Part shown: piece by piece, positions 712 to 33,415 of the stretch
Layout: every line of letters starts with the position of its first letter
Numbering within the stretch: position 1 is the first letter of the stretch
Source of the DNA: Candidatus Dormiibacterota bacterium
GTDB lineage: Bacteria; Patescibacteriota; Saccharimonadia; UBA4664; DATLOE01
Direction: 5' to 3'
Length of the DNA stretch: 33,415 nt
Assembly: GCA_035536395.1 (NCBI GenBank)
Contig: DATLOE010000001.1
Span: 1 to 33,415, forward strand
Translations under genes and position numbers: made by a program
The notes under the pieces: generated by a model
The model's database searches: none
What the model saw: only the letters and a program-made list of their open reading frames with translations
What the model was told of the DNA's origin: nothing

Positions 712-740
712 TTTACAAAAGCCCGCAATTTGGTTATAGT
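712..740 (+). promoter_or_regulatory. rpsT promoter, near-leaderless
   Basis: TTTACA (712-717), a 17-nt spacer and TATAGT (735-740). The expected transcription start falls at about 747-750, on or just before the rpsT ATG at 750. No Shine-Dalgarno sequence precedes that ATG. Confidence 0.65.
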
Positions 741-749
741 CCTTTCGTT

Positions 750-1115
750 ATGCCTATTATTAAATCCGCTATTAAGAGAGTCCGTCAGTCCGCTAAAAGA
801 CGTAGCCGCAACCTGGCCGTAAAGCGGGCTATTCACGATGATGTCAGAACCCTCCAAGATTCCATTGCCAGCGGGGATAAAAAGGCTGTTACGGAGAACC
901 TGAAGGCGGCTATTTCCGAAATCGACCGCGCAGTAAAGAAAGGTACTTTGCACAAAAATACTGCTGCCCGACGCAAATCGAGCATTACTAAGCAGGCCAA
1001 CACCGTAGTAGGCAGCGCCAAGCCAGCAGATAAAACCGCGGCCGCCAAAGTTAAGCCTGCCGCCGCCAAAAAGAGTGCGCCTAAAACTAAGGCCGCAAAA
1101 CCGAAATCTAAGTAG
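750..1115 (+). CDS. rpsT: 30S ribosomal protein S20 with a long Lys/Ala-rich tail
   Basis: S20 binds 16S rRNA in the body of the small subunit. The start MPIIKSAIKRVRQSAKRR is the usual S20 N-terminus, and the helical core continues to about residue 85 with HKNTAARRKSS, the family's C-terminal rRNA-binding signature. The protein is 121 aa against about 87 in most bacteria. The extra 35 or so residues are a low-complexity Ala/Lys/Pro tail resembling histone H1 tails, probably disordered and RNA-binding (inference). An in-frame ATG at 687 was rejected because it lies upstream of the promoter. The ATG at 750 follows a -10 box by 9 nt, so translation is probably leaderless. The 64-aa gene downstream follows after 7 nt and is likely co-transcribed. 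Confidence 0.95.
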   Translation: MPIIKSAIKRVRQSAKRRSRNLAVKRAIHDDVRTLQDSIASGDKKAVTENLKAAISEIDRAVKKGTLHKNTAARRKSSITKQANTVVGSAKPADKTAAAKVKPAAAKKSAPKTKAAKPKSK

Positions 1116-1122
1116 GGGTAAT

Positions 1123-1317
1123 ATGGCAAAAACGCCGGAGACTTCGCAATCACAACTGCACGATTTGTGCGGCGATTTAATGGAGCACACCAAACTGCTG
1201 CGAGATTACGGTACTACACCGGGTAATGTTTGGCTTGCCAGGAGTGAGCTTAATAAGATCGATCAGTTGACTGGGGAAATAGAACAGTTGCTAGAAGAGA
1301 TCAAAGCCGAATCTTAA
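1123..1317 (+). CDS. Small uncharacterised helical protein (64 aa)
   Basis: I do not recognise this gene. It encodes 64 aa, predominantly helical and acidic toward the C-terminus (INQ-like heptads in residues 40-64, ending LLEEIKAES), which suggests a short coiled coil or helical hairpin. An AGGGGT Shine-Dalgarno overlapping the rpsT stop region precedes ATG 1123, so it probably forms a two-gene operon with rpsT and is translated by reinitiation or its own SD. Its stop codon overlaps the stop of convergent holA: the four bases TTAA carry both TAA codons. A role linked to ribosomes is suggested only by the neighbour. The spacing, SD and codon use argue that it is real. Confidence 0.68.
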   Translation: MAKTPETSQSQLHDLCGDLMEHTKLLRDYGTTPGNVWLARSELNKIDQLTGEIEQLLEEIKAES

Positions 1318-2249
1318 ACTCTGACTTTTTCGGCTACATTATATATTAGACGCTCAATCATAGTTTCGGCATCCCCCGCGCCTGTTTTTATTTCGTAATC
1401 GGTTTCTACAGATTGTAAAAACGCCCAGCGCAGAGCTTCTTCTGAAATATTTAACTGACGCGAAAGCATTTTGCCCGCTACAAATGGCGACATGCCGCTG
1501 TTTTTAGACAGCGTCTGGGCTGAAACATTGCCGGCGGTTTTAGCCAGCAGTAAATTGCGCAGCTGCCATATAATCATGCTCAAAATATACATTTCACTGA
1601 CGAGCTCACTTCTCAGCTGCCTATATAAAGACATAGCTTTAGGCACTCGGCCGGCTGTCATATTTTCTACCAAATCAAAAATCGATTCATTCTGGTTAGG
1701 TACTACCAGCTTAGCTATGGATTCGACCGTGATCTTAGGATCAAGGCCGGCCAGTTTTATAATCTCCCCCTGCAGCCGCCACTGGTCTTCGCCGGCAGTC
1801 TCGATCAATTTCAAAATGGCGGGGCCGTCTATCTCGGCGCCGCTGGCCTGGGCCTCACGCTTTACCCATTGCTGCAGCTGCGAACCGCTCAAGGGATGGA
1901 ATTTGATCGCCTTAGAACCAGCCGACAGATGCTTAAAATATGAAGTCCGCTGATCAGCATTAGAGTCATAAAACACCGCTACAGTTGTGGGTGAAACAGC
2001 CTGGGTTATTTGCCCTATTTTTTCGGCAAGTTGTTTATTTTGGGCGAGGTCTTCAATGATTACCAGGCGGCTAGTGGTAAGCAAAGGAGCGGCTTGGAGG
2101 GCAGAGAGTAGATCTTGCATCTTAACCTCTTTGCCTTCGATTTTTTCTACACCAAACTCACTGGCAGTCTTTTTTAAATATTCAGACTTTAAGCGGGCAA
2201 TCTGCTGCCTGGCTGCAAAACTATTCGGTCCATAAAAGAAAAAAATCAT
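1314..2249 (-). CDS. holA: DNA polymerase III subunit delta
   Basis: Delta opens the sliding clamp as part of the clamp loader. The 311-aa protein begins with the family's short strand and loop (MIFFFYGPNSFAARQQI), where a degenerate P-loop sits, and continues with the AAA+-like fold. Motifs such as LLTTSRLVIIEDL, VAVFYDS and the helical C-terminal collar domain are in the expected order. Length is close to the usual 320-345 aa. It lies 4 nt downstream of mutM. No good SD is visible, but TAAAAT (2256-2261) ends 6 nt before the ATG, so either coupling to mutM or an internal leaderless promoter could drive translation. The two genes appear to be one repair/replication operon. Confidence 0.88.
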   Translation of the reverse strand: MIFFFYGPNSFAARQQIARLKSEYLKKTASEFGVEKIEGKEVKMQDLLSALQAAPLLTTSRLVIIEDLAQNKQLAEKIGQITQAVSPTTVAVFYDSNADQRTSYFKHLSAGSKAIKFHPLSGSQLQQWVKREAQASGAEIDGPAILKLIETAGEDQWRLQGEIIKLAGLDPKITVESIAKLVVPNQNESIFDLVENMTAGRVPKAMSLYRQLRSELVSEMYILSMIIWQLRNLLLAKTAGNVSAQTLSKNSGMSPFVAGKMLSRQLNISEEALRWAFLQSVETDYEIKTGAGDAETMIERLIYNVAEKVRV

Positions 2250-2253
2250 ATCT

Positions 2254-3120
2254 CTATTTTACTCCCAGCTTCTGGCATTTGGGGCAGTAGTGCGTACCGC
2301 GCCCTGCAACCCTGGTTTTAACAATCTCTGTCGCGCACACGGGGCAAGGCTTGCCTTGGCGCCTAAACACTCGCGCATACTGCAGATAATCCCCTTGCTT
2401 GCCCAGCGCGTTCACGTAATGTGTAAAGCTGGTGCCGCCGTGTTTAATGCCAAGCTTGATAATAGCTTTAATGGCTATGTGGAGGCGCTTAACCTCAGCC
2501 GATTTTAGTGAACCGGCCAGGCGGGCAGGGTGAATCTTGGCCAAATGCAGAGATTCATCAGCATAAATGTTGCCGACTCCGCTGACGGTCGATTGATCGA
2601 GTATTACAGCTTTAACGGGTGCACGAGCGTGACTTTTAAACTCGCGTGTTAGCACATCGGGTGTAAATGCGCTGCCGAGCGGCTCCGGACCCATCCGTAC
2701 CAACAGTTTATCTAGGTTCACATGAGCCGTTTCTACCAGCTTGATCCAGCCAAACTTTCGCTGGTCGTTAAAGAACAGCTTGTCTCCGTTTTTGAATGTA
2801 AACACAGCTCGCGTGCTTTTATCGGGTAAATTGTGCTCCATGCTGGCGGTCGGATGCCCACCAGCAAACCGCTGACCACCCTTTTTCTGCAGCACTAGTT
2901 GGCCTGTCATTTTAAGGTGGAACATAAGGCTCATATCGCGGTTCAGATTCATAATTAGTACTTTACCGCGGCGATCCAGCGATTTAACCTTATGGCCGAT
3001 GGCCTTTTTGGCATCAGGAAAACTCTTAGCCCACAGCGCCCTAGCCTCGGCTATAGTCTGGCCGGCAATCTCTGCATCAAGCCCGCGTTTAATTGTCTCG
3101 ACTTCAGGTAACTCCGGCAT
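2254..3120 (-). CDS. mutM: Formamidopyrimidine-DNA glycosylase (Fpg/MutM)
   Basis: Removes oxidised purines such as 8-oxoguanine and nicks the abasic site by beta/delta elimination. The start MPELPEVE exposes the catalytic Pro after Met removal, followed by the catalytic Glu; this fixes the start codon. The beta-clamp lysine region (DRRGKVLIM, about residues 49-57) and the H2TH segment (STVSGVGNIYADE) are intact. The C-terminal zinc finger has four cysteines (CPVC...CPKC). The 288-aa length is slightly above the usual 270-275. A TATAAT sits 23 nt upstream of the start with a weak GGGGGCAGG leader, so it appears leader-bearing. It heads an operon with holA. Confidence 0.95.
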   Translation of the reverse strand: MPELPEVETIKRGLDAEIAGQTIAEARALWAKSFPDAKKAIGHKVKSLDRRGKVLIMNLNRDMSLMFHLKMTGQLVLQKKGGQRFAGGHPTASMEHNLPDKSTRAVFTFKNGDKLFFNDQRKFGWIKLVETAHVNLDKLLVRMGPEPLGSAFTPDVLTREFKSHARAPVKAVILDQSTVSGVGNIYADESLHLAKIHPARLAGSLKSAEVKRLHIAIKAIIKLGIKHGGTSFTHYVNALGKQGDYLQYARVFRRQGKPCPVCATEIVKTRVAGRGTHYCPKCQKLGVK

Positions 3121-3160
3121 CCTGCCCCCATAAAAGTAGGGTTATTATACCGCAGTCGGC

Positions 3161-3886: not shown

Positions 3887-3965
3887 AGCTTATTCCTCTG
3901 AATGTACCAAAAGCTTAAGCCATAAAACTAGTAAAGTCGACTTCACTAAGTAGATAAAAGTATGA

Positions 3966-3988
3966 GGGCGCGGGATAATCCCGCGCCC
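3966..3988 (-). terminator. Intrinsic terminator after the small winged-helix gene
   Basis: Two perfect 10-nt arms (GGGCGCGGGA and its complement) with a 3-nt loop, just after the stop of the minus-strand gene at 3999. The reverse strand then has only a short T-rich tail (ATACTTTTATC), so efficiency is uncertain. It could also insulate the Nudix gene. Confidence 0.7.
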
Positions 3989-3998
3989 ATACACGCAC

Positions 3999-4349: not shown

Positions 4350-4429
4350 AATTCCCTCCTAGACTCAAGGTGCAGGTACAGCTTAAATCTAGGTTAATAA
4401 AGAGAGTTCGGCTAGTCGAATTTTTTTGA

Positions 4430-7141
4430 CTATAGCTCGCCCCAGGATTTACCGATTCTGGTTTCGGCCACAATCGGCACGCCGAGATCGTAAACATTCT
4501 CTAGGGTTTCCTGCATAATCTTAGCTACTTCTGCGGATTGTTCTTCATTACACTCTACAATCAGTTCGTCGTGTATTTGCAGAAGCATTTTGGCGCCCTC
4601 GGGCAGCTTGGGCGCAAGCGCAACCATGGCAAGCTTCATAATATCGGCAGCTGTGCCCTGAATGGGCACGTTCACCGCCATCCGTTCGGCAGCACCCGCT
4701 ACCATGAAGTTGTTAGAGTTAATCTCCCCACAGGGTCGCCGCCGGCCGAGCAAGGTTTCGGTGTATTCATTTTCTCGGGCGAACTTCTTAAGATTATCTA
4801 TGTACTCAGCTAACCCTTTGCGCAGCTCAAAATAGCGTTTAATGAATCCCGCGGCTTCCTCACGGTTCATGCTGGTAGCCACACTCAAACCGTGCGGGCT
4901 CATGCCATACAGCACACCGAAATTGATCGTTTTGGCATTATAGCGCTGGTCTTTGGTTACTTCCGTAAGCGGAACATTGTACAGCTCAGAAGCCGTCTGC
5001 TGGTGCAGGTCTATTCCCTTTTTAAAGGTCTCTATCATATCGTCGTCTTTGGAGAGCGCTGCCGCTACTCGTAACTCAATCTGCGAATAGTCGGCCGCCA
5101 CGAACACCCGGCCTTTTGGCGCAATAAATGCCTTACGAATCTCGCGGCCGATTTCGGTACGGATAGGAATGTTCTGCAAATTCGGGTTGGTGGAGCTAAG
5201 GCGGCCGGTCTGGGCAATGGTCTGATTAAAGCTAGTGTGCACGCGCCCATCTGGCTTTACCAGCTCCGGCAGCGCATCCACATAGGTAGTCTTTAGCTTC
5301 ATAAGCTCGCGATACTCAATTATCATCTCTATTACCGGGTGTGCTTCGCGCAGCTTATCGAGCTCTTTAGCGGCAGTAGAAAGGCCGGTCTTGCCCCTTT
5401 TCACGCCGGCCGCGGCCAAGCCCAGCTTATCGAAGAGAATTTGTGATAACTGGGCCGGTGAGCTGATATTAAACCGCGCGTCACAAGCCTTATATATCTT
5501 TTCCTCTAGAGCTAGGACATCCTTAGTAATTTTCTGGCTAAACTGCCTCAAAAACCCAACATCCAGTTCAATTCCGGCCAGTTCCATCTCAGCCAGCACC
5601 GGTATCAGCGGCCATTCGGTGGCTTCGGCTAGTTTATTCAGATTCCCCTCAAGCTCCCTCCTCAGCTGCTCATAAAGGCGCCATGTCATATCGGCATCTT
5701 CAGCCGCGTAAGTGGTGGCAGCCTCAATCTCCACCCCGCCAAAGGTAATCTGATTGCGCCCATGGCCTATTAGCTCCTTAATCGGGATCATCTCAATGCC
5801 AAATTCACGGTAAGTAAGATCGTCTAGCGACTGAGAGCGGCCAAGCGGATTAGTTAAAAAGGCGGCAATCATGGTATCAAAAACAATCGGGCGCGGAGTA
5901 ATGCCATGGCGGCAAAGTATTTTATAATCGAACTTTGCATGGTGAGCTACTTTTCCGATTTTCGGATCTTCAAAGACGGCTTTAAGTGCTGAGCAGACTT
6001 CTTTGGAATTTAATTGGTCGCCCTCATGATGGGCTACCGGTATATAGTAAGCCTCACCCTTCTTGCAGCTCACGGAGATACCGACCAGGCCGGCAGTAAC
6101 GTCATCTACACTGTCGGTCTCGGTGTCAAAGGCGAAGGTCTGGCACTTTTGCAGTGTTGCAACCAGCTCATCCAGCTGTTTTTTTTTGGTAACGGCTTGG
6201 TATTTAACATCACCTAGGTGCTTGCGCTCCTTTTTGGGCTCGCCGGCATCAAACAATGTCGGCTCATTACTTAGCTCGGAAGGCAGCTTGGCCAGCAGGC
6301 TTTTAAAATCGAGTCGGCGAAACAGTTCGTGGATTTTCTGCCGGTCATAGCGCCCCACCCCTGCTTTATCCAGCTCAAGCTTTACCGGCGCGTCACAGGC
6401 GATTTGCGACAGTTCGTAGCTGAGGTAGGCAACTTTTTTACCCTCTTCCAGCCGCTCACGCAGCTTGCCCGAAGTCTGTTCAATATTTTTATACACACCG
6501 TCCAGGCTGCCGTGGGTTTTAATCAGATCCATCGCGGTCTTTTCGCCGATGCCGGCCACACCCGGAATGTTATCGCTGGCATCCCCCTTTAACGCCTTGA
6601 AATCTACGAATTGCTCAGGGGTCAGCCCGTATTTCTCCTGCATAGCAGCGCGATCGTAAATTACCGTGTCGGTAAAGCCGCGACGCATGGTGTAAACCTT
6701 GGTGTTGTCATCGATCAGCTGCAGTTCGTCCAGATCGCCCGTTACGATAATGCTCTCCAACCCCTTCTTTTCAGCCGTTCGGGCCAGTGTGCCTATGATG
6801 TCATCGGCCTCATACTTATCGAGCTCCACCCAAGGCATACCGAGCGCTTCTGTAACCTCCCTGGCGTAAGGAATCTGCGCATACAAGTCATCTGGCTGCT
6901 TTTTGCGATGCGCTTTGTACTCCGGGTAAATATCCTTGCGAAAGGTATCGCTCGATTTATCCCACGTCATTATGGCGTACTGGGGTTTAAGGTCCTGCAG
7001 CATCTTTAATAGGATTGTGGTAAAGCCGTAGACTGCATTGGTCGGAATGCCTTTTGAGTTGGTTAGGTGCGGAATAGCATGATAACCGCGATGAAACACG
7101 GCACTGCCATCCACCAGTACTAAACGGGGCTTTTTGCTCAT
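4430..7141 (-). CDS. polA: DNA polymerase I (5' nuclease, proofreading and polymerase domains)
   Basis: This 903-aa protein fills gaps and removes primers. Residues about 1-290 are the 5'-3' nuclease (LVLVDGSAVFHRGYHA start, TGDLDELQL, GDASDNIPGVAGIGEKTA). A 3'-5' exonuclease follows with intact acidic residues (FAFDTETDS, HHAKFDYKIL, YAAEDADMTW), so proofreading looks functional, unlike Taq-type enzymes. The polymerase palm carries DYSQIELR, the O-helix region KTINFGVLYG and HDELIVE. A first ATG at 7150 would add three residues, but it forms part of the -10 box TATAATG. The ATG at 7141 gives MSKKPRLVLVDGS and lies 7 nt after that box, so I chose it; the mRNA is probably leaderless. It is head-to-head with the gene at 7204. 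Confidence 0.95.
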   Translation of the reverse strand: MSKKPRLVLVDGSAVFHRGYHAIPHLTNSKGIPTNAVYGFTTILLKMLQDLKPQYAIMTWDKSSDTFRKDIYPEYKAHRKKQPDDLYAQIPYAREVTEALGMPWVELDKYEADDIIGTLARTAEKKGLESIIVTGDLDELQLIDDNTKVYTMRRGFTDTVIYDRAAMQEKYGLTPEQFVDFKALKGDASDNIPGVAGIGEKTAMDLIKTHGSLDGVYKNIEQTSGKLRERLEEGKKVAYLSYELSQIACDAPVKLELDKAGVGRYDRQKIHELFRRLDFKSLLAKLPSELSNEPTLFDAGEPKKERKHLGDVKYQAVTKKKQLDELVATLQKCQTFAFDTETDSVDDVTAGLVGISVSCKKGEAYYIPVAHHEGDQLNSKEVCSALKAVFEDPKIGKVAHHAKFDYKILCRHGITPRPIVFDTMIAAFLTNPLGRSQSLDDLTYREFGIEMIPIKELIGHGRNQITFGGVEIEAATTYAAEDADMTWRLYEQLRRELEGNLNKLAEATEWPLIPVLAEMELAGIELDVGFLRQFSQKITKDVLALEEKIYKACDARFNISSPAQLSQILFDKLGLAAAGVKRGKTGLSTAAKELDKLREAHPVIEMIIEYRELMKLKTTYVDALPELVKPDGRVHTSFNQTIAQTGRLSSTNPNLQNIPIRTEIGREIRKAFIAPKGRVFVAADYSQIELRVAAALSKDDDMIETFKKGIDLHQQTASELYNVPLTEVTKDQRYNAKTINFGVLYGMSPHGLSVATSMNREEAAGFIKRYFELRKGLAEYIDNLKKFARENEYTETLLGRRRPCGEINSNNFMVAGAAERMAVNVPIQGTAADIMKLAMVALAPKLPEGAKMLLQIHDELIVECNEEQSAEVAKIMQETLENVYDLGVPIVAETRIGKSWGEL

Positions 7142-7148
7142 ACAAAGC

Positions 7149-7176
7149 ATTATAACGTGAAGAGGCCTACTGTTAC
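7149..7176 (-). promoter_or_regulatory. polA promoter (leaderless)
   Basis: On the reverse strand GTAACA (7171-7176), 16-nt spacer, TATAAT (7149-7154), then 7 nt to the ATG at 7141. The last two bases of the -10 are the start of an upstream in-frame ATG that I therefore reject as a start. Confidence 0.7.
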
Positions 7177-7190: not shown

Positions 7191-7196
7191 TATACT
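7191..7196 (+). promoter_or_regulatory. -10 box of the 7204 gene (leaderless geometry)
   Basis: TATACT with 7 nt to the ATG at 7204. No convincing -35 is visible. It shares the 60-bp gap with the divergent polA promoter. Confidence 0.5.
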
Positions 7197-7203: not shown

Positions 7204-7656
7204 ATGAACGCTAGCATAATTTTAAAAGTGGCTTATACTTTTCTAATCTTAGGCGCAATTTTGTCTTTGATATCCGCAATCATTAATCTAATACCCGCTG
7301 TTATCTACGGACCGTTAGCGATACTTGGTATCTTGAATGGCAATTGGTCGAGTTTACTATATTTAGTTATTGTTTGTTTAATTTTATTAAACAGTTTTCT
7401 GCTTTTCTGGTTCGCTAGAGGCATTAAGCAGTTAAATATAAAAAGAACACGGTGGTTATTGATGTATACCCTTATACTGTTTCCATCCTTTATCTTCTAT
7501 CTAAGTAACGAAAAAACTGAAAAGTTTTGGAATGGAGAGCTTGTATCCAGTGTAAAAACATATTCGGAGGCAGAATTAATACTGTTTACACTCTTCCTAG
7601 CTTTTCTACTTATACTATTTTTTAGGGCATATAAAGTAATTAAATTGAGTACCTAA
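7204..7656 (+). CDS. Four-helix integral membrane protein, AT-rich, unknown function
   Basis: No family recognised. The 150-aa protein has four hydrophobic stretches (about residues 8-32, 35-70, 84-100, 122-143) separated by short basic or polar loops such as GIKQLNIKRTR. It should sit in the cytoplasmic membrane with both ends on the same side. Base composition is visibly richer in A/T than the flanking genes and codons ending in A/T dominate, hinting at a different origin. It has a leaderless-type -10 and no SD. It is the only plus-strand gene within a long minus-strand block (4.0-16.3 kb) and ends at a strong bidirectional hairpin. Confidence 0.7.
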   Translation: MNASIILKVAYTFLILGAILSLISAIINLIPAVIYGPLAILGILNGNWSSLLYLVIVCLILLNSFLLFWFARGIKQLNIKRTRWLLMYTLILFPSFIFYLSNEKTEKFWNGELVSSVKTYSEAELILFTLFLAFLLILFFRAYKVIKLST

Positions 7657-8451: not shown

Positions 8452-9561
8452 TTATCTAAGGTAATCTTTCAGTTTTTTGCTCTCACGGTGCTTACGCAGC
8501 TTAGCCAGTGCTTTGGCCTCAATCTGCCGAATGCGTTCGCGGGTCACGCCGAACTCCAGCCCCACCTCTTCCAGTGTGTGGCTGCGTCCATCCTCCAGCC
8601 CGAAGCGCATTCTGAGTATCTTCTGCTCGCGCGGGGTTAAGAGGGCAAGTACTTCATTCACATGCTCTTTTAAGAGCTGGTGAGTGGCTAGTTCTTCGGG
8701 CGTCATAGATTCTTCGTCGGGAATGAACTCACCTAAGTTAGAATCGCCATCATCGCCCACCGGTGCCTCAAGTGAGACAATATCCTGCTTGATCTTGAGA
8801 ATATGATTCACCTTATCAACATCAATCTCCATCTCGGCCGCAATCTCCTCTGGTAGCGGGTCGCGCCCCAGTTCTTGCACCAGACGGCGCTGGGTGCGAA
8901 TGAGCTTATTAATAGTCTCTACCATATGCACCGGAATTCGGATCGTCCTGGCTTGGTCGGCAATGGCACGAGTAATAGCCTGGCGGATCCACCAGGTAGC
9001 GTAGGTCGAAAACTTAAAGCCCTTGGTGTAATCGAACTTCTCAACCGCGCGCAGTAAACCGGCTGAACCTTCTTGGATAAGATCGAGTAAGTCCAGCCCG
9101 CGGCCAATATATTTCTTGGCAATCGAGACTACCAGGCGCAGGTTGGCCTCTACCATTTTGTCTTTTGCAGCTTTATCACCTTTAGCTATCCGCTTGGCCA
9201 GCTCAACTTCTTCTTGGGCGGTCAAAAGCGGCACCCGGCCTATTTCTCGTAAGTAGAGGCGCACTGAGTCATCGGCAATATCTTTGGCGTAATCCTCATT
9301 TGCATCTTCGGCAGAGTCCTCTTCAGCCACCTCCCATATGAGACGCTCTTTTTGATCGGTCAGCTCAACGCCGTTTTCTAGTAAAGCAGCATAGAGCTCA
9401 TCGAGCTCCTCCAGGTTTTCCTCGGCGTCTGGAAAAACCTGCGAAACTTCCTGCTGGGTTACAAACCCTTGCTCTTTGCCTTTTTGAATCAATCTTTCTA
9501 TTTCCGGAGAATAGGAAGTCTTTTCCTCTTCGGGTTCTTGCTTAGCAGCTTTTCTAGCCAT
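8452..9561 (-). CDS. rpoD: Primary RNA polymerase sigma factor (sigma-70/SigA)
   Basis: At 369 aa this is a compact group 1 sigma factor. Region 1.1-like sequence is acidic (residues about 1-90). Region 1.2 is [21 protein letters not shown], region 2.3/2.4 contains [21 protein letters not shown] followed by [11 protein letters not shown], region 3 is [15 protein letters not shown], and region 4.2 is [21 protein letters not shown]. These recognise the -10 and -35 elements described in this window. GAAAGGAA gives a clear SD. It follows dnaG by 31 nt, so replication primase and sigma factor are co-transcribed, as in the macromolecular-synthesis operons of many bacteria. It is the only sigma factor in the window. 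Confidence 0.96.
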
Positions 9562-9592: not shown

Positions 9593-11326
9593 TTATTCGT
9601 CTTCGTTAATTAGTGCTTGATACTCACTCAGTAGCATATGGGCAAGCTGCGTGTCGCCCTTAGTTTCGGCTTCACGCAGTTTTTTGCTAAGTTTAGCTTT
9701 TATGTCTTTATGAGAGCTAATTTGCAGTCTTCTTACCAGCTCATATGCTTCAAAGCTGCGATCTGCTGGAGCCAGCGAGCCATATAGCTCCTCGCCCCGT
9801 AGTGTTAGGATTTTTACATAATCGCCGGTTTTTGGCAACCCGGAGGCGATTTCGGTACCAGACTTATCGCCGGCCTTGCGCATAACCTCTAAAATCTCTT
9901 GATGGGTAATGTTTTCAAAATTAGCCGCCGTCAGGTCATCCAAACTCAAACGCACCTCGGGATAAGCCAGATTAATCGCCAGTACTGCTTCTTCCAGCAG
10001 GCTTTTGGCGTGCCTGGGCTTAGCGGGAGCTGGCTCTGGGGCTGACTGCTCAGGCTGCTGCTTGACCTGCTTTTGCAGCTTTTCTTTTATCGCATCTTGG
10101 CTGGCATTAATTTTAGAGGCCAGTTTCTGCACGTAATGATCCTGCTCTACCGCGTCAGCCAAGTGCCCGATGATAGTCGCCAAACGATCGCTGTACAGGC
10201 GCTTTCCGGTGGCACTGTCCAGATCGTACTTTTCGGCCAGTTTATCAAACAAATAATCAATGGCGTACTTGGCGTCCGCTATGTATTTCTCCCAGCTTTT
10301 TGGATTCTCTTGAATCAAATCATCCGGGTCTTTGCCCTCGGGAATGTCAACCATGGAAAGCGTAATACCCAGGCTTTGGCTTAGGTCAATCGCCCGCTCC
10401 GCAGCCTTTAGGCCGGCGTCATCGGCATCAAACGCGATCTTTATGTTGCGGGTTAGGCGGCTGAGAGTTTTAAGCTGGTGCAGGGTCAGGGCCGTGCCGC
10501 TTACAGCTACTACTTGTTTTATCCCTGTCTGGTGACTGACGACTACATCCATATTGCCCTCTACTATCACCACTTCATCGCTGCGGCGAATAGCCTCCTT
10601 GGCCAAATGCAAGCCAAAGATGGCTTTGCTTTTATCGAATAAAACCGTTTGGGGGGTATTGAGGTATTTCGGCATAGAATCATCCAGTACTCGCCCCATG
10701 AATCCGATGGGAGTCCCTTGAATGTCGCAGATTGTAAACATCAGCCGCTGGCGGTGAATGTCGAATAAATTAGACCGCCCGGCTTTCTGCCCGGCAAGGC
10801 CCGCCTTTTTGAGCTCTGCGGCTGTAAAGCCTTTTTTTTGCAGAAAATCTGTGAGTGCTGTCCAGCTGTCGGGCGCGTAGCCGACCTCAAAATCTTCCAC
10901 AGTCTGCTTGCTCAGCTTACGTTTTTTTATGGCATATTCATAAGCCGTCTTATTTTTAACAAGTGTAGCCTGATAATACTTAACGGCCCAGCGCAGGGCT
11001 TCTGTTAATCGATCCTGCTCTTTTTTTACTTTAGGGTCGTAGCCCTGGCTGCTCAGCTGCACACCGGCTTTGGCAGCCAAAACCTCCAGAGCACCTCGGA
11101 AATCGAGACCGTCCATTTCCATTACAAATGCAAATATATCGCCGCCGCGCTGGCAGCCGAAACAGTGCCAAATGCCCTTTTCAGGGCTAACCATAAAACT
11201 AGCTGTCTTTTCATTATGAAACGGGCAAGGGGCTTTAAGGTTGCGCCCGGACTGCTTTAATTCAATGTAGCCGCCAACGATCTCAGCCACATCAAGCTTG
11301 TCTTTAATCTGCTCCACTTCTGTCAT
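9593..11326 (-). CDS. dnaG: DNA primase DnaG
   Basis: Makes RNA primers at the replication fork. The 577-aa protein has the N-terminal CHC2 zinc finger (C34, H37, C55, C58), the basic RNA polymerase domain with [18 protein letters not shown], the TOPRIM segment ([32 protein letters not shown]) and a helical C-terminal region for helicase contact with a Pro/Glu/Ala-rich linker ([18 protein letters not shown]). TAAAAT (11333-11338) ends 6 nt before the ATG and no SD is present, so translation should be leaderless. It leads the dnaG-rpoD operon. Confidence 0.95.
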
Positions 11327-11332: not shown

Positions 11333-11338
11333 ATTTTA
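11333..11338 (-). promoter_or_regulatory. dnaG -10 box (leaderless geometry)
   Basis: TAAAAT, 6 nt before the dnaG ATG. The -35 region overlaps the T tract of the terminator just upstream and is poor, so this call rests on the -10 only. Confidence 0.5.
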
Positions 11339-13690: not shown

Positions 13691-13696
13691 ATTTTA
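13691..13696 (-). promoter_or_regulatory. -10 box of the isomerase gene (leaderless geometry)
   Basis: TAAAAT with 6 nt to the ATG at 13684. No recognisable -35. Confidence 0.45.
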
Positions 13697-13730: not shown

Positions 13731-13757
13731 AAGAAAAAAGGGCCTCGTATGAGACCC
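13731..13757 (-). terminator. Terminator of the long non-coding transcript
   Basis: A 7-bp stem GGGTCTC/GAGGCCC (one G-U) with an ATAC loop, followed on the reverse strand by TTTTTTCTTTTC. Confidence 0.88.
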
Positions 13758-14267
13758 TGGGTGGTATGCATGGTGGTATGCATTTCTTTTTGAGGAGCCG
13801 CGGGCGCCGCGGAGACACCGCACTATGGCGATACGATAGCATTGGCCGTTGTGGCCAAAAGCGATTGTCGTATAAGGGTCCAAGCAATCTAGGCCCGTCG
13901 GCGAGACGCTTGAATGCCTCTACGAACGTTCACTTACGCTACCGCTTGGTCTCCGCGGCGATTCACGGGATATAAGGATTACCGCCCAACCGACAGACTC
14001 CGCATTAGCACGAACAGTAAGATGTGCCTACGGATGCCTGTTGCCCGGTTGGGCTACACAGACACTGGAGTAACCCCTCCTCTGTTCTGCCCCTAATTCA
14101 GCTCAGTGGCTTTCGGACGTCAGCCTGCCTTTTTCCGTATAGCGCCGTAATATTAACGGCTCGCGCGGATAAAGTGGCTATGGCTGGCCTAATACCGGCT
14201 TTGCTGAAGTGGGGCGACTTGTTTGGGAACTGGTACCGTGAGACTTTTGAGCACCTCACGAACTATG
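13732..14267 (-). ncRNA. Long structured non-coding RNA (about 536 nt), family not recognised
   Basis: The 670 bp between groEL and the isomerase gene hold no credible protein. A near-consensus promoter (TTGACA, 17 nt, TAATAT) and a strong terminator define one reverse-strand transcript. It contains a perfect 12-bp helix (13949-13960 with 13805-13816), a 9-bp helix (14046-14054 with 13984-13992) enclosing nested CAG/CTG, TCCG/CGGA and GCAC/GTGC pairs, a CGTGAG/CTCACG hairpin near the 5' end, GCCGT/ACGGC, ACAGA-GGAG/CTCC-TCTGT, and a TATCGTAT-closed hairpin with TTGGCC/GGCCAA. I looked for RNase P, tmRNA and SRP signatures and found none that fit. A strongly divergent RNase P or tmRNA remains the main alternative, because the size and independent transcription suit a housekeeping RNA. 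Confidence 0.7.
13760..13783 (-). repeat. Tandem 12-nt repeat near the 3' end of the non-coding RNA
   Basis: Two perfect, adjacent copies of ATGCATACCACC (reverse strand). Each holds the self-complementary ATGCAT, which might support RNA dimerisation or serve as a binding site. Confidence 0.7.
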
Positions 14268-14273
14268 CCGGCT

Positions 14274-14302
14274 ATATTACTTAATTTTGTTAATTATGTC
14301 AA
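14274..14302 (-). promoter_or_regulatory. Strong promoter of the long non-coding RNA
   Basis: TTGACA (14297-14302), a 17-nt A/T-rich spacer, then TAATAT (14274-14279). It is one of only three perfect -35 boxes paired with a well-spaced -10 that I found in the window; the others serve groES and the pilin operon. Confidence 0.75.
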
Positions 14303-14353: not shown

Positions 14354-16003
14354 CTAGTACATGCCTCCCATGTCAGGTGCAGCTCCGCCAGCCGGTTTCT
14401 CTTCTGGGATCTCGACTATGAGACCCCCCATTGTCATAGCTGTACCGGCAATGGAGACGGCGTTCTGGACTGCCTCGCGTGTGACCTTGGCTGGGTCAAC
14501 TATGCCGGCCTCTTTCATTACTACTGTCTTAGACGGGCTATTAACATCCACGCCTACTCCGGCCTTGGCCTCTAGCACCTTGGCAAGCTTTTCTTCGGCA
14601 TTTAAGCCGGCATTCAGCATCAGCTGCCTGAATGGCTCCACTAGGGCATTCTTAAGTATTAACTGCCCAGCTTCTTGAGAGTTGCTCACCCTGGTCGGCT
14701 CCACATCAAGTTCTTTTGAAAGATCGGCCAGCGTTACGCCGCCGCCAGGCACTATCCCTTCAGCCACAGCAGCTTTTGTAGCCGCTACGGCATCATCCAC
14801 CCGGAACTTCTTCTCTTCGATCTCGGTTTCTGTGGCTCCACCGACCTTAATTACGGCTACCTTGCCGGCTAGGGAGGCCAGCCGCTCTTCAAACTTCTCT
14901 TTTTCAAACTCGCTGGTAGCGTTTTCGGCCTGAGCTTTCAGCTGGCTAATGCGAGAATTTACTTCGGATGAACTGCCGGTGCCCTCTATGATCGTAGCGT
15001 CGTCCTTAGTGGCAATGATTTTGCGTGCAGAGCCCAGCATATCCACGGTAGCGTTTTCGAACGTTACGCCCTGCTCATCGCTAATTACGGTAGCGCCAGT
15101 GAGAATGGCAATGTCTTCCAAGATCTCCTTACGCCGGTCACCAAAAGATGGCGCCTTAATAGCCAGCGCGCTAAACACGCCTTTAAGACGGTTAAGTACT
15201 AATGTGGCTAGGGCCTCGCCCTCCACATCTTCGGCGATAATCACCAGTTCCTTTTTGCCACCTTGGGCTACCTTTTCAAGTAAAGGTAAGATGTCTTGGA
15301 TTGAGCCGATCTTCTTATCTGTTACAAGTATTAGCGGCTTTTCATAAATCGCTTCCATTCGGGTGGCGTCAGTCACCATATACGGGCTCACATAACCACG
15401 GTCGACCTTAAAGCCTTCGACCACTTCTTTCTCCAGCCCCAGCGTCTGCGACTGCTCGACAGTTACCGAACCCTCTTCCCCTACGGCTTCAATCACATCG
15501 GCAATCAGCTCACCGATTTCAGAATCGCCAGCCGAAACGGTAGCTACTTGGGCAATCTTTTCTTTATTGCCGGCTATCTTTTCGGTCATGGTATCGATCT
15601 TTTTAATCAACTCACCGGCGGCTTCGTCTAATCCGCGCTTAAGATCCATTGGGTTGTGACCAGCGGCAATCAACTTATTGGCTTCACTCAAAATGTGGTA
15701 AGTCAGAACAGTGGCAGTCGTGGTGCCGTCGCCAACCTCATCGTTAGTTTTTGAGGCAGCCTGCTTAATAAGCTCTGCGCCTATGCCACGGCCGAGCGAT
15801 TCGCTGTCTTTCTTTTCTTCCAGCTCAACGGCCTTCGCTACTGTTACGCCATCGTGCGTTACGGTCGGCCCGCCGTAGCTTTTGCCTATTACCACGTTGC
15901 GGCCCTTGGGACCCATGGTTACCTTAACTGCATCATATAATTCTTTGGCTCCTTGTAGGACCCTAGTTCGCGCGTCGTCATCATAAAAAATTTGTTTGGC
16001 CAT
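14354..16003 (-). CDS. groL: 60-kDa chaperonin GroEL
   Basis: ATP-driven folding chamber subunit. The 549-aa protein shows the family hallmarks: [22 protein letters not shown], the ATP motif [25 protein letters not shown], and a C-terminal GGM-type tail ending PDMGGMY that lines the cavity. It starts 9 nt after groES, and a strong AAGGAGG SD overlaps the groES stop codon, so the two are co-translated in one operon. The CIRCE element upstream of groES should control both. The gene is full length with no unusual features. Confidence 0.98.
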
Positions 16004-16379: not shown

Positions 16380-16407
16380 TTGCCGGGGCAGAATCATCAG
16401 ATATAAT
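16380..16407 (+). promoter_or_regulatory. Promoter of the amidinotransferase-family gene (leaderless)
   Basis: TTGCCG (16380-16385), 16-nt spacer, TATAAT (16402-16407), then 7 nt to the ATG at 16415. The in-frame ATG at 16409 lies only 1 nt after the -10 and should not be in the RNA. Confidence 0.7.
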
Positions 16408-18561: not shown

Positions 18562-18570
18562 AGTATATCA
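18562..18570 (-). promoter_or_regulatory. Extended -10 of the MurE-like gene (leaderless)
   Basis: TGA followed by TATACT, 6 nt before the ATG at 18555. A TTGTCA lies 19 nt upstream, a long spacing. Confidence 0.55.
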
Positions 18571-20869: not shown

Positions 20870-20878
20870 ATTGTACCA
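20870..20878 (-). promoter_or_regulatory. Extended -10 of the FemAB operon
   Basis: TGG then TACAAT (20870-20875), 8 nt before the ATG at 20861. No -35 match. Confidence 0.45.
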
Positions 20879-20886: not shown

Positions 20887-20915
20887 TTGATAGCTGGTAG
20901 CAGATGGCAGATACT
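20887..20915 (+). promoter_or_regulatory. tsaD promoter (leaderless)
   Basis: TTGATA (20887-20892), exactly 17 nt, GATACT (20910-20915), then 6 nt to ATG 20922. The upstream in-frame ATG at 20904 lies inside the promoter. Confidence 0.72.
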
Positions 20916-21953: not shown

Positions 21954-21969
21954 CTTTATCTTGTAAAAT
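21942..21969 (+). promoter_or_regulatory. valS promoter (leaderless)
   Basis: TTGAGC (21942-21947, within the end of tsaD), 16-nt spacer, TAAAAT (21964-21969), then 6 nt to ATG 21976. Confidence 0.65.
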
Positions 21970-28231: not shown

Positions 28232-28263
28232 AAAAAATCATTTAGTTTATGCTTACCGGTGTA

Positions 28264-28811: not shown

Positions 28812-28826
28812 CTGCCGGCTACACCA

Positions 28827-28857
28827 CTAAAAAAGCCCCTTGCCGGGGCTTTTTTAG
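28827..28857. terminator. Bidirectional terminator between hsp20 and the pilin array
   Basis: Stem AAAAAAGCCCC/GGGGCTTTTTT with a TTGCC loop. T runs on both strands suit both convergent genes. Confidence 0.92.
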
Positions 28858-28869
28858 TATCAAAGATTA

Positions 28870-29277
28870 CTAAGCAGCAGGGGCTAGCTGGCCGGTCACA
28901 AAGCCGACAATAGCAAAGGCCAGAATGGCAACTACAATACCGATGATGGCATATAGAATGGTGTTCTTAGCCGATTCAACTTTTTTAGGGTCACCATTAG
29001 AGATTACATACTGCAAGCCACCCAAGATCAACATAATGACGGCTATGGCGCCGATCAGGAAGATGAGAATGTTAGCAATTTGCTGGAATGTACCGCCCTC
29101 ACCGAATAGGGTGGTGGTGTTACTGGTGCCTTTAGCACAATCTGCGCCTTCACCAATGGTCAGGCTATTCGGGTCACAGGCTGCATCCTGTCCTAGTGCG
29201 GCAGCAGGAATAAAGGTGCTGAAGTAAACGCCGGCTTCGGCGGTTTTTCTTAATACTTTAGAGGTAGTGTTTTTCAT
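28870..29277 (-). CDS. VirB2/TrbC-like pilin, paralogue 8 (last, separate promoter)
   Basis: 135 aa. Residues 1-30 form a signal-like segment (VYFSTFIPAAALGQDA), followed by a short exposed part with a Cys pair (CDP...ADC, 13 residues apart) and two membrane helices joined by the array's hallmark loop SNGDPKKVESAKNTILYAI. The second helix is IGIVVAILAFAIVGFV. The hydrophobic-loop-hydrophobic core is that of VirB2/TrbC pilins, the subunits of type IV secretion or conjugative pili. It is separated from the other seven by 62 nt and has its own -10 boxes and SD (AAGGA), so its expression may be set independently. Pilin function is inferred from family resemblance. Confidence 0.72.
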   Translation of the reverse strand: MKNTTSKVLRKTAEAGVYFSTFIPAAALGQDAACDPNSLTIGEGADCAKGTSNTTTLFGEGGTFQQIANILIFLIGAIAVIMLILGGLQYVISNGDPKKVESAKNTILYAIIGIVVAILAFAIVGFVTGQLAPAA

Positions 29278-29293
29278 TATGATTCCTTTTTTT

Positions 29294-29327
29294 AAGATTA
29301 TACCTTAATCTTACCGTGATTATAGCA
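29294..29327 (-). promoter_or_regulatory. Tandem -10 boxes with overlapping palindrome before pilin 8
   Basis: Two TATAAT boxes (29319-29324 with a TGC extension, and 29297-29302) lie 16 bp apart. The second is inside a 7-bp inverted repeat (AAGATTA/TAATCTT, 29294-29312), which may be an operator or an RNA hairpin. Leader to the ATG: about 12-35 nt. Confidence 0.5.
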
Positions 29328-29339
29328 TAAGTACTTTAC

Positions 29340-29699
29340 TTATTTAATATTGCTTGTAACGAAGCCGATTATAGCGTAAGCCAAAATAGCCACTACTACT
29401 CCGACTACACCGTACAGAATGGTGTCTTTGGCCCTTTTGATTCGGGCCGGGTCGCCGGCAGAGGTTACGTAGGTCAGTCCGCCAATGATTAGTACAAGCA
29501 CAGCCACGGCGCCTACCACGAATATCAGCACATTTGCTATCTGCTGGATGGAGTTTACCAGCGATTGAGGTGCGCTTTCCGGCCTAACCTCGGCTGCTCC
29601 CCTGTGGGCTTCGTTGTGAGCCTTGCCTTCGTGAAAAGCCATGGCAGCGCCTGGAACAAGCAGAGATAGATAAATTAGTGAGCTAGTCAGTTTCTTCAT
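29340..29699 (-). CDS. VirB2/TrbC-like pilin, paralogue 7
   Basis: 119 aa. It has a signal peptide (MKKLTSSLIYLSLLVPGAAMA) with cleavage likely before FHEG, a His/Glu-rich exposed part without cysteines (HEGKAHNEAHRGAAEVRPES), then two helices around SAGDPARIKRAKDTILYGV. It overlaps paralogue 6 by 4 nt (ATGA), so translation is coupled. Lack of the Cys pair and the His-rich stretch distinguish it from its neighbours; the stretch could bind metal. This is a guess from composition. Confidence 0.72.
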   Translation of the reverse strand: MKKLTSSLIYLSLLVPGAAMAFHEGKAHNEAHRGAAEVRPESAPQSLVNSIQQIANVLIFVVGAVAVLVLIIGGLTYVTSAGDPARIKRAKDTILYGVVGVVVAILAYAIIGFVTSNIK

Positions 29700-30115
29700 A
29701 ATCTTGTTAGTACAAATCCTACTACAGCATAGGCTAGTAGCGCCACTATTAACCCCATAACCGCATACAGAATGGTGTTTTTGGCTTTGGTGATGCGGGC
29801 TGGGTCGCCAGTGGAGGTTACATAGCCGATACCGCCGATTATTATTATTACCACTGCTACCGCGCCGGCGATAAAGAGCAGAGCGTTATTAATGTTATTT
29901 ATGAAAGTCGTGAGCTCCTTACCAGTATCACACCGAACCATATTACCGGCGGTGGCAGTAGGAACACTTTTTCCTTCGCCATCTAGGGGGGTGCCTTTGG
30001 CCCCTAGGCAGGCTTCATATTCAGCTCTTGTAGCTGCCAGCACTTGAGCTGAGGGTGCAATTATTAAAACTCCAAGCATGACCGTAAAAAATGATGCCAG
30101 AAATCGCTTTCCCAT
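29696..30115 (-). CDS. VirB2/TrbC-like pilin, paralogue 6
   Basis: 139 aa. Signal peptide ending AQVLAA, an exposed part of about 40 residues with one Cys pair (YEACLG...MVRCDTG), then two helices around STGDPARITKAKNTILYAV. The nucleotide sequence is identical to paralogue 5 over 60 bp at this loop (29757-29816), far more than neighbouring parts, which indicates recent duplication or gene conversion. One nt separates it from paralogue 5 and it overlaps paralogue 7 by 4 nt. Confidence 0.73.
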   Translation of the reverse strand: MGKRFLASFFTVMLGVLIIAPSAQVLAATRAEYEACLGAKGTPLDGEGKSVPTATAGNMVRCDTGKELTTFINNINNALLFIAGAVAVVIIIIGGIGYVTSTGDPARITKAKNTILYAVMGLIVALLAYAVVGFVLTRL

Positions 30116-30116
30116 A

Positions 30117-30458
30117 CTAAAGCCTCCCGATGACGAACCCGACTATGGCATATGCCAGGATCGTAACTATTAAGCCAATAACCGCATACAGAATGGTGTT
30201 TTTGGCTTTGGTGATGCGGGCTGGGTCGCCAGTGGAGCCGATGTAGCCGATGCCGCCTATAATCAGAATGACAACCGCAATTGTACCGGCTAGATAGAAT
30301 CCCATGTTAATAAGGTTGCTAATGTATCCCGTTAATGCCCCCTCCCCGCAAGTTCCGCCTACGGCTTGTGCCCCTTCGCATTGCGGCTGCGCCAAAGCTA
30401 TGGCAGGAATTAGTGCCACGGAACCGGCTGATATTAATCTGGTTAAAAACTTCTTCAT
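30117..30458 (-). CDS. VirB2/TrbC-like pilin, paralogue 5
   Basis: 113 aa, the shortest signal-bearing member. Signal peptide MKKFLTRLISAGSVALIPAIALA with cleavage before QPQC, a Cys pair 10 residues apart (QCEGAQAVGGTCGEG), then two helices around STGDPARITKAKNTILYAV. Its start codon overlaps the stop of paralogue 4 (TAATG). It shares a 60-bp identical stretch with paralogue 6 (30178-30237). With so little sequence beyond the membrane part it is the closest to a bare VirB2-type pilin. Confidence 0.74.
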   Translation of the reverse strand: MKKFLTRLISAGSVALIPAIALAQPQCEGAQAVGGTCGEGALTGYISNLINMGFYLAGTIAVVILIIGGIGYIGSTGDPARITKAKNTILYAVIGLIVTILAYAIVGFVIGRL

Positions 30459-30877
30459 TAAAGCCTCTGTATTACGAATCCTATAATCGCCCGCGCGATA
30501 ATGGCTACGATTAACCCGATAATAGCATATAAAATCGTGTTTTTGGCATTGGCGATTCTAGTTGGGTCGCCGGTGGAGGTAATGTACTTAATGCCGCCGA
30601 TGACAATAAAGGCAATAGCTACGATTGAAGCCGCGAATATGAAGAGGTCTAGCAGGGTGGCCAAGTAGCTAGTCTGGGCATCACCGGCAGCATTTTGGCT
30701 TGGCTTGTCTAAGCTCTGATTACCCTTATTGCAGCCCGCTAAAAATGAAACCTTATTTGCATCTTGAGTGGCTTCACAGGCACCGTTTTTAATTGTCTCT
30801 AGTGGCCCCGCGGCCAAAGCCGGGGAGCTAAGCGAAAAGCAGGCAACAAGAGCCAGGGTATACGTAAGCTTTTTCAT
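30458..30877 (-). CDS. VirB2/TrbC-like pilin, paralogue 4
   Basis: 139 aa from MKKLTYTLALVACFSLSSPALAA, a clear signal peptide; the start at 30919 was rejected because it would precede the signal peptide. The exposed part has a Cys pair (GACEA...LAGCNKG), then two helices around STGDPTRIANAKNTILYAI. TACAAT (30885-30890) ends 7 nt before ATG, so an internal leaderless promoter inside the operon is possible. Otherwise it is read through from paralogue 3 after 16 nt. Confidence 0.73.
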   Translation of the reverse strand: MKKLTYTLALVACFSLSSPALAAGPLETIKNGACEATQDANKVSFLAGCNKGNQSLDKPSQNAAGDAQTSYLATLLDLFIFAASIVAIAFIVIGGIKYITSTGDPTRIANAKNTILYAIIGLIVAIIARAIIGFVIQRL

Positions 30878-30893
30878 TACGCCAATTGTATAA

Positions 30894-31529
30894 CTACTTG
30901 GGTAGATTGGCCACCACAAAGTCTACAATCGCTTTAGCCAAGATGGCTAGTATCAGGCCAATAATGGCATAGGTAATGGTATTCTTGGCGCCTTCGATGT
31001 TCTTAGGGTTGCCACTAGAGCTGGCGTAACGGATGCCTCCTAGCACAAGGAAGAAGGCCGAAAGCACAGCCGTCACCAAGACCAGCAAGTCGACTATGAC
31101 CACAGCAACTCTTTTAAATGTCAGGTTGGGGGTATTAACATTATCTACCTTGCCGGCAATCTCATTAACGTCTTTTTTAATAACCCGATCAATATATTGA
31201 TCGGTTCTGTCTCTAAGGGTTTGAGGCTGGTTCGGCTGGCCTTCCGTAATGTTCTGCACCCCTGCACCCACATACTGCATTAAGCAGCCATCAACATCGC
31301 CGGTTTTCTGTGAGTTGCACTGGTATTTTTTTGCAGCTGCCTCAATTTCGGCCACCACATTATCGCAAGTGCCTTCGGCATTAGTTCCCACCTGATTTTT
31401 ACACTGGGCTATGTAAGTGGAGGCTTTGTAGTTGCCGGCCAGCAAGTTCGGTGCCGCAAAATAGGCAGCAGCTGAAATTGAGAAGAGCAACCCTGCGGCC
31501 AAAAACGGTTTTTGGAAAAAAGGCTTCAA
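30894..31529 (-). CDS. VirB2/TrbC-like pilin with a long exposed domain, paralogue 3
   Basis: 211 aa, the largest of the array. After a signal-like helix (LAAGLLFSISAAAYFAAP) comes an exposed domain of about 120 residues with four cysteines (AQCKNQ, GTCDN, YQCNS, DGCLM) and a charged helical stretch (RDRTDQYIDRVIKKDVNEIAGKVDN). The two membrane helices surround SSGNPKNIEGAKNTITYAI, with Asn in place of the usual Asp of GDP. It may be a tip, base or adhesin-type subunit rather than a bulk pilin (inference). It overlaps paralogue 2 by 4 nt. Confidence 0.7.
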   Translation of the reverse strand: MKPFFQKPFLAAGLLFSISAAAYFAAPNLLAGNYKASTYIAQCKNQVGTNAEGTCDNVVAEIEAAAKKYQCNSQKTGDVDGCLMQYVGAGVQNITEGQPNQPQTLRDRTDQYIDRVIKKDVNEIAGKVDNVNTPNLTFKRVAVVIVDLLVLVTAVLSAFFLVLGGIRYASSSGNPKNIEGAKNTITYAIIGLILAILAKAIVDFVVANLPK

Positions 31530-31810
31530 CGGAATCTGCCTAATATAAATTCAATTATCAGAAATGCCCCGGCTGAGAGCACCAGCCCGAATATGGCGTA
31601 GGTAATGGTGTCTTTAGCGCTTTTGATTCTACCGGGATCGCCTTGGGAAATTACATAGTTAATACCGGCCCAAATGATCATTATGACGGCCAGTACGCCA
31701 GATAAGATAAGGATGATTTCTATGATGTTAGCAAAAATTATCGGTATGACGGCAATACTGTTAGAAGATAAATCCGCGCCTTTAAAAATACTGGGAAAGA
31801 GATCGTTCAT
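31526..31810 (-). CDS. VirB2/TrbC-like membrane protein without signal peptide, paralogue 2
   Basis: 94 aa. It lacks a signal peptide and the exposed Cys-containing part: only a short N-terminus (MNDLFPSIFKGADLSSN) precedes two long helices around SQGDPGRIKSAKDTITYAI. It may insert by the Sec-independent or YidC route, or be an accessory inner-membrane subunit. It starts 1 nt after the stop of paralogue 1. The lost ectodomain makes it the most divergent in design. Confidence 0.7.
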   Translation of the reverse strand: MNDLFPSIFKGADLSSNSIAVIPIIFANIIEIILILSGVLAVIMIIWAGINYVISQGDPGRIKSAKDTITYAIFGLVLSAGAFLIIEFILGRFR

Positions 31811-31811
31811 G

Positions 31812-32258
31812 CTATGTTACCCCGATTAGGTTTAGGAAGGCCGCCATAATTAAGAGTAGCACGAGGCCGGTGGCCGCCTGCTGAAGCTGCTTTTTGGCCG
31901 CCTTAATGTCATCCGGGCTGCCCCCAGAGATAATGTAGCGGAAACCGGCATAGATAATCACAGCTACCAGCATTAGCCCGAGTAGGCCAAGCATGAAGTT
32001 TGCCAGGGCTTTGATAAAGACAAATATCGGATTGGTGTTCTGATCGCCCACGCAGGTAGCTGTGCCAAACAAACCGCCCGTGCCGACAAAGACTCCGCGG
32101 CGATCATTGCAGACTACTTTATTTTCCGGATTCTCAGCATTTTGGGCACTTGGAGCGTTTTTTGAGCTTTGAGCATAGGCGACCAGCGACACATTAGTGC
32201 CAAGCACGGCAGCCACAAGAAACGGGGTGATAATTATTGCGGTAAGCAGGTTCTTCAT
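31812..32258 (-). CDS. VirB2/TrbC-like pilin, paralogue 1 (first gene of the array)
   Basis: 148 aa from MKNLLTAIIITPFLVAAVLG. A signal peptide ends at VAYA, followed by a Ser/Asn/Pro-rich stretch, a Cys pair 19 residues apart (VVCNDR...TATCVGD) and two helices around SGGSPDDIKAAKKQLQQAA. The loop is the least conserved of the eight (GSPDD for GDPAR), and the second helix differs (TGLVLLLIMAAFLNLIG). Start ATG 32258 is preferred over 32267 because TAGAAT ends 7 nt before it, so the mRNA is leaderless or nearly so. It leads the operon. Confidence 0.72.
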   Translation of the reverse strand: MKNLLTAIIITPFLVAAVLGTNVSLVAYAQSSKNAPSAQNAENPENKVVCNDRRGVFVGTGGLFGTATCVGDQNTNPIFVFIKALANFMLGLLGLMLVAVIIYAGFRYIISGGSPDDIKAAKKQLQQAATGLVLLLIMAAFLNLIGVT

Positions 32259-32265
32259 TACCCCC

Positions 32266-32295
32266 ATTCTATCTGTGTAGCTTACCTGATGTCAA
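32266..32295 (-). promoter_or_regulatory. Pilin-operon promoter
   Basis: TTGACA (32290-32295), 18-nt spacer, TAGAAT (32266-32271), then 7 nt to ATG 32258. It probably drives at least paralogues 1-7. Confidence 0.72.
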
Positions 32296-32310
32296 AAAGC
32301 TTATGACAGA

Positions 32311-32340
32311 TTAGCAATATCAAGATAAATCGATTAAACT
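32311..32340 (+). promoter_or_regulatory. Promoter of the VirB6/TrbL-like gene (leaderless)
   Basis: TTAGCA (32311-32316), 18-nt spacer, TAAACT (32335-32340), then 7 nt to ATG 32348. It diverges from the pilin promoter; the two -35 boxes are 15 bp apart. Confidence 0.55.
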
Positions 32341-32347
32341 TATGCTT

Positions 32348-33415
32348 ATGAAGCGGAGCAGGTTACTCCTGACGGTGAGCATGTATTTTGTGGTTGCAAT
32401 TGCAGCCGTATTTTTGCCGTCTTTTGACGTATCTATAAATAATGGAGTAAGTATCAAAATCCCTGCCGCTCATGCTGCCGATGCAAAAAAGATGTGTGAG
32501 GATAGTGATAAAAAAACCCTCTGCGAAATACTTGTAAATGAGGCGAGCACACAACTGGATGACTGTAAGGGTAACGCACTAGAGAAAGCGGGCTGTCAGT
32601 CGGCTCTCATTACTTCACTTCAGTCAAAGTGCCAAAGCAGCTCGAGCGATACAGCAAAATATCGTACATGCATAAGATCTGAGGCAGCCAGCGCCTCACC
32701 AACAACCGGCAGTGGTGGCGATGATGAAGGCTGCGGCACGGCATTCGATTGGATTGTCTGTAAAATCATCCGGGGGGTGGCCGATACGGTAGAGTTTGTG
32801 GAAGACAGGTTCATTCAGCCGTTTTTGGACTTTAAACCGCTTAGTACAAGTGTAGATTCAAACCCGATGTATAAGGTCTGGCAAGTGATGCGTAATCTTG
32901 CCAACGCCCTGTTCATCATCATCTTTCTAGTCTTCATTTTCGCGAATACGCTCTCTATTAACCTCGATGCCTATACCGTCAAGAAAATGCTGCCCAAACT
33001 GGTAGCGGCGGCTATTTTAGTACAGCTGTCTTACTTGCTGGCCTCGCTGGCAATCGATATTACAAACATCTTCGGCCGTGGGCTGTTTATATTGGGTAAT
33101 GATATTATTCCGCCCTACAGCAGCCCCGACGGCAGCGGGGAAGTGCGGGGAGGGCTGCTCGGCTTAACTGGTCTAGCGGTTGGCGCAGCAAATCTGGCTT
33201 TTGGCGCAGTTACCGGCAGCATCTTCGTGGTGATGATCGGCGCCTTCTTCGGTATTATGGCAGTGTTTTTAACGCTGATGTTCCGGCAGATATTAATTAC
33301 CGTCCTCATTATCGCAGCACCAATTGCATTTGCCTTGTGGGTACTACCCAATACCGAAAACCTCTTCCGTAAGTGGTTGGATATGTTCATAAAAGTACTG
33401 GCTATGTATCCGTTA
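32348..33415 (+). CDS. VirB6/TrbL-like polytopic protein of a type IV secretion system, 3' end cut
   Basis: Reads open to the window edge (356 codons, no stop). The N-terminus has a hydrophobic segment (TVSMYFVVAIAAVF) and a processing-like AAHA; next comes an exposed region of about 100 residues with at least seven cysteines (KMCED, TLCEI, DDCKG, AGCQS, SKCQS, RTCIR, EGCGT). From about residue 190 there are at least four membrane helices (ALFIIIFLVFIFANTLS, KLVAAAILVQLSYLLASLAI, GSIFVVMIGAFFGIMAVFLTLMF, ILITVLIIAAPIAFALWVL), then a polar NTENLFRKWLDMF. That order, with the RQILITVLIIAAPIAF helix, fits TrbL/VirB6-type channel proteins. The neighbouring pilin array supports this. The start is 32348, not 32342, by promoter distance. 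Confidence 0.8.
   Translation, partial: MKRSRLLLTVSMYFVVAIAAVFLPSFDVSINNGVSIKIPAAHAADAKKMCEDSDKKTLCEILVNEASTQLDDCKGNALEKAGCQSALITSLQSKCQSSSSDTAKYRTCIRSEAASASPTTGSGGDDEGCGTAFDWIVCKIIRGVADTVEFVEDRFIQPFLDFKPLSTSVDSNPMYKVWQVMRNLANALFIIIFLVFIFANTLSINLDAYTVKKMLPKLVAAAILVQLSYLLASLAIDITNIFGRGLFILGNDIIPPYSSPDGSGEVRGGLLGLTGLAVGAANLAFGAVTGSIFVVMIGAFFGIMAVFLTLMFRQILITVLIIAAPIAFALWVLPNTENLFRKWLDMFIKVLAMYPL

Follow-up and report, generated by a model that had tools for sequence, protein, structure and literature searches.

A sizeable minority of first-in-unit genes in this Saccharimonadia genome appear to be expressed from leaderless mRNAs, with Shine-Dalgarno (SD)-led initiation mainly inside operons, an arrangement wide across Patescibacteria; we put the probability of this reading at about 0.9. 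A leaderless-type interpretation had been proposed in a preliminary description of the window, and it is supported by a sharp peak of -10 boxes 6–7 nt before start codons, conservation of these boxes together with the start codon, exclusion of SDs at boxed starts and phylum-wide enrichment over an in-phase control. The window, which is the whole 33,415-nt stretch of DNA analysed, is contig 1 of 22 in a 642,558-bp genome of the Saccharimonadia (TM7, Patescibacteria). Its RpoD has a Candidatus Saccharibacteria MAG as best match, with Saccharibacteria among several of the next hits. The genome's own 16S rRNA ends in GGATCACCTCCTTTCT and its anti-SD is intact.

Direct reading of 14 named starts in the window recovered most of the promoter boxes ascribed to them. 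Eleven carry a hexamer with at most one mismatch to TATAAT at the distance given, counted as the nucleotides between the end of the box and the ATG. Two more, tsaD and the VirB6-like gene, have weak boxes with two mismatches, and the one claimed 7 nt before "pilin 1" has no support: no pilin start fits, since the one at 29277 is SD-led with its TATAAT 19 nt away, and those nearby either carry an SD or lack a good box. Boxes with at most one mismatch are rare: of the 974 ATGs in the window, 2.4% have one at 6–7 nt. The starts had also been described as lacking a good SD, and none is in place at the 11 good-box starts; at holA a GGAG lies 12 nt away, too far. The proposed SD-led contrast group held as well, with SDs at groES, groEL, rpoD and hsp20. 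The features are:

735..740, plus strand: -10 box TATAGT of rpsT, 9 nt before the ATG at 750; predicted leader of 2–3 nt
2256..2261, minus strand: -10 box TAAAAT of holA, 6 nt before the ATG at 2249
7149..7154, minus strand: -10 box TATAAT of polA, 7 nt before the ATG at 7141; the ATG at 7150 lies within the box
7191..7196, plus strand: -10 box TATACT of ORF 7204, 7 nt before the ATG at 7204
8452..9561, minus strand: rpoD, SD-led; its product is the presumed sigma factor for these boxes
11333..11338, minus strand: -10 box TAAAAT of dnaG, 6 nt before the ATG at 11326
13691..13696, minus strand: -10 box TAAAAT of an SIS/phosphoglucose-isomerase-like gene, 6 nt before the ATG at 13684
14354..16003, minus strand: groEL, SD-led contrast (AGGAGG) with no close -10 box
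16402..16407, plus strand: -10 box TATAAT of the DDAH-like gene, 7 nt before the ATG at 16415
18562..18567, minus strand: -10 box TATACT of murE, 6 nt before the ATG at 18555
20870..20875, minus strand: -10 box TACAAT of FemAB paralogue 2, 8 nt before the ATG at 20861
20910..20915, plus strand: weak -10 box GATACT (two mismatches) of tsaD, 6 nt before the ATG at 20922
21964..21969, plus strand: -10 box TAAAAT of valS, 6 nt before the ATG at 21976
30885..30890, minus strand: -10 box TACAAT of a T4SS pilin gene, 7 nt before the ATG at 30877
32335..32340, plus strand: weak -10 box TAAACT (two mismatches) of the VirB6-like gene, 7 nt before the ATG at 32348

Two start codons had been moved downstream on the strength of box geometry, and both relocations agree with protein relatives. 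TsaD structures align their own Met1 to the second Met of the window protein, at ATG 20922. At polA, the upstream ATG at 7150 is part of the -10 TATAAT itself, and relatives begin at the downstream Met. The longer spacings at rpsT (9 nt) and FemAB paralogue 2 (8 nt) would give leaders of 2–3 nt rather than none. The protein of ORF 7204 has no Pfam match. The T4SS pilin genes form a tandem array at 28870–32267 of the window (T4SS_pilin, PF18895; all four of the genes tested match), adjoined by the VirB6-like gene. No gene was called in the roughly 550 bp (13740–14290) that separate the isomerase gene from groEL, and this interval gave no Rfam family at gathering score, no tRNA and no tmRNA.

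Genome-wide gene starts show the same box at the same place. The preliminary description had predicted a sharp peak in the distance histogram, and we drew one from the window plus about 290 kb of further stretches, 325,790 bp of the 643-kb genome in all. A gene finder written for the test, using coding statistics and start-codon type and taking no promoter or SD input, called 286 genes in this sample (82% coding). Starts with a divergent neighbour, or with 25 nt or more of upstream sequence, were classed as unit-type. Of the 152 such ATG starts, 21 had a TATAAT-like box at 6 nt and 9 had one at 7 nt, whereas each off-peak distance had about 2. Dinucleotide shuffles averaged 1.9 per position, and none of 500 matched the combined 6 and 7 nt count of 30, for which about 3.7 were expected. 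The peak was thus as sharp as predicted. An extended TGn lay upstream of 34% of boxes versus 7% in shuffles, and -35 elements were not enriched at boxed starts in this sample (p=0.22).

Boxes and SDs tend to exclude each other and differ in operon position. A strict SD occurred at 1 of 30 boxed starts versus 34 of the 122 other unit-type starts (p=0.003). Boxes were rarer at operon-like starts (5/75 versus 30/152 unit-type, p=0.011), which were also richer in SDs than unit-type starts. The excess over off-distance controls came to 31 genes, or 11% of genes with start miscalls allowed for. By strict box, the leaderless-type share is at least 11% of genes in this genome and 5–22% in relatives, a lower bound in that near-consensus boxes alone were counted. 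The leaderless-type starts that had been called widespread are therefore present, but as a minority, about 11–17% of genes by strict box. The proposed two-mode initiation is incomplete: more than half of the unit-type ATG starts (88 of 152) lack both a strict SD and a -10 box at 6–7 nt, which points to some further way of initiating or to errors in start calling.

These positions suggest a route to leaderless expression. First-in-unit genes (polA, dnaG, valS, murE, holA and others) would be read from a sigma70-type promoter whose -10, often extended as TGnTATAAT, ends 6–7 nt before the start. At standard sigma70 spacing, a -10 ending there sets +1 at the A of the ATG or beside it, and for this reason we infer leaderless mRNAs at boxed starts: RNA polymerase would begin on the A of the AUG or within about 1 nt of it, and the ribosome would recognise the 5'-terminal AUG directly. 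Operon-internal genes, and some others, would instead use a canonical SD paired with the intact anti-SD. The arrangement is probably widespread among Patescibacteria, to differing degrees. Zheng et al. 2011 (PMC3160421) reasoned from spacing in the same way.

Orthologues keep the box together with its start codon. In dnaG it lies at 5–9 nt in 27 of 30 class genomes, in 19 of them at exactly 6, and most of these boxes are perfect TATAAT or TATACT in surroundings that differ. For polA, a box at about 5–9 nt occurs in 25 of 30 class genomes, where composition alone predicts 2.2, and in three of the remaining genomes an SD takes its place, the expected exchange of modes. The N-termini of both proteins are conserved across the class while the flanks have diverged. 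Outside the class, 28 of 88 other Patescibacteria have a polA box at 5–9 nt (6.6 expected), 16 of them at 6 nt. Fewer independent events lie behind these counts than the numbers suggest, as near relatives are not independent and some family f6 genomes have nearly identical upstream DNA. We dropped rpsT as a conservation test: its mode turns over among relatives between a 9–10 nt box (G001 and G008 likewise carry TATAGT, at 10 nt) and an SD, found in several others.

The box-to-start spacing is enriched across the phylum. We counted TAWAAT-N6-ATG in whole genomes against the in-phase control TAWAAT-N12-ATG, as pattern counts rather than gene calls. The N6/N12 counts were 41/8 in this genome, 1463/502 in 26 class genomes and 13341/7814 in 261 other Patescibacteria. 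N6 exceeded N12 in 266 of these 287 Patescibacteria, and 167 passed a 5% false discovery rate against the Firmicutes baseline. SD-led sigma70 genes of Firmicutes share the -10 consensus and rely on SD-based initiation machinery. Unlike the Patescibacteria, 18 Firmicutes genomes showed no N6 excess (2977/2980, ratio 1.00), and 94 starts from Firmicutes loci had no box at 6–9 nt and no peak. Two other controls were rejected: the reversed pattern, biased even in Firmicutes (about 1.4x) and replaced by off-spacing controls, and N10, which does not share the reading phase of N6 (Firmicutes ratio 0.82) and gave way to N12. Gene-start histograms peaked in G001, G034, G235, G296 and G194, and were weak or flat in the relatives G020, G206 and G047, so use varies between lineages. 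G024 has one of the strongest pattern excesses (151/22), yet in the 90 kb sampled its called starts show an excess of only about 6%.

Could the boxes arise without promoters? Many bacteria have an AT bias around the start of non-SD genes (Nakagawa 2017, PMC5397173), and TATAAT-like hexamers might be a by-product of an AT-rich, unstructured start-codon context or of U-rich tracts that bind S1. Such a by-product is very improbable, given that the consensus is confined to 6–7 nt with background levels at 3–5 and 8–11 nt, carries the TGn extension, exceeds dinucleotide shuffles, keeps its fixed spacing in dnaG and polA while flanks diverge, and shows no excess in AT-rich Firmicutes.

If the boxes are promoters, their transcripts might still carry leaders of 1–5 nt and be near-leaderless rather than strictly so. 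Spacings of 7–9 nt do occur (rpsT 9, FemAB paralogue 2 8, polA 6–9 across the class), but the mode is 6 nt (21/30 in this genome, 19/27 for class dnaG), which at standard spacing puts +1 on the A of the AUG. We regard short leaders as very unlikely to be the rule, and they differ from strict leaderlessness only in degree. Least credible of all is that the close box drives a transcript whose protein begins at a downstream SD-led start, leaving the near AUG unused. Start codons were called from sequence alone, which leaves room for such an error, but the near AUG fits the conserved N-termini of DnaG, PolA and TsaD.

Leaderless genes are a known kind; the open-licence literature searched gave no account of their wide use in Patescibacteria. 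Of 953 bacterial genomes surveyed by Zheng et al. 2011 (PMC3160421), 207 had them; most were Actinobacteria and Deinococcus-Thermus, with a TA-like TANNNT signal about 12 bp before the start. As in those phyla, the -10 hexamer here begins about 12–13 nt before the start, SDs are absent and SD-led genes coexist. Unlike them, this genome belongs to another phylum, has medium GC (50%) and shows a full TATAAT rather than a TAnnnT consensus, and its strict-box share of 11% (5–22% in relatives) compares with about 20% and 40% reported for Actinobacteria and Deinococcus-Thermus (PMC3160421). Medium-GC leaderless genomes (Aquificae, Chloroflexi; PMC3160421) belong to other phyla and have a TATAAT-type consensus at the same position. 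The text of Zheng et al. does not use the words TM7, candidate or phyla. In the open-licence full texts searched, no report of leaderless genes in Saccharibacteria or Patescibacteria turned up. The sole related remark found concerns YchF, which promotes translation of leaderless mRNAs and is conserved in a comparison that takes in CPR (PMC12641178).

Leaderless initiation may well be an ancient, phylum-wide trait of Patescibacteria, a view we hold with modest confidence. Under it, the core replication genes dnaG and polA would have been leaderless since at least the Saccharimonadia ancestor, followed by lineage-specific expansion and loss, perhaps tied to reduced ribosomes. Some family f9 genomes show a 4–7 fold pattern excess. 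Patescibacteria make up a very large, mostly uncultured share of bacterial diversity, and their ribosomes are reduced. If leaderless expression holds for many of their genes, gene callers that rely on SDs can put starts in the wrong place, which would happen at tsaD and polA if the first ATG were taken, and promoters could be read straight from the genome at each such start codon. Constructs for reporters and expression in Saccharibacteria would need another 5' design, and the phylum would be a natural test bed for small ribosomes starting on a 5'-terminal AUG. Leaderless-type starts may use GTG too: polA of G020 (L157) starts with GTG and has TATACT 6 nt upstream.
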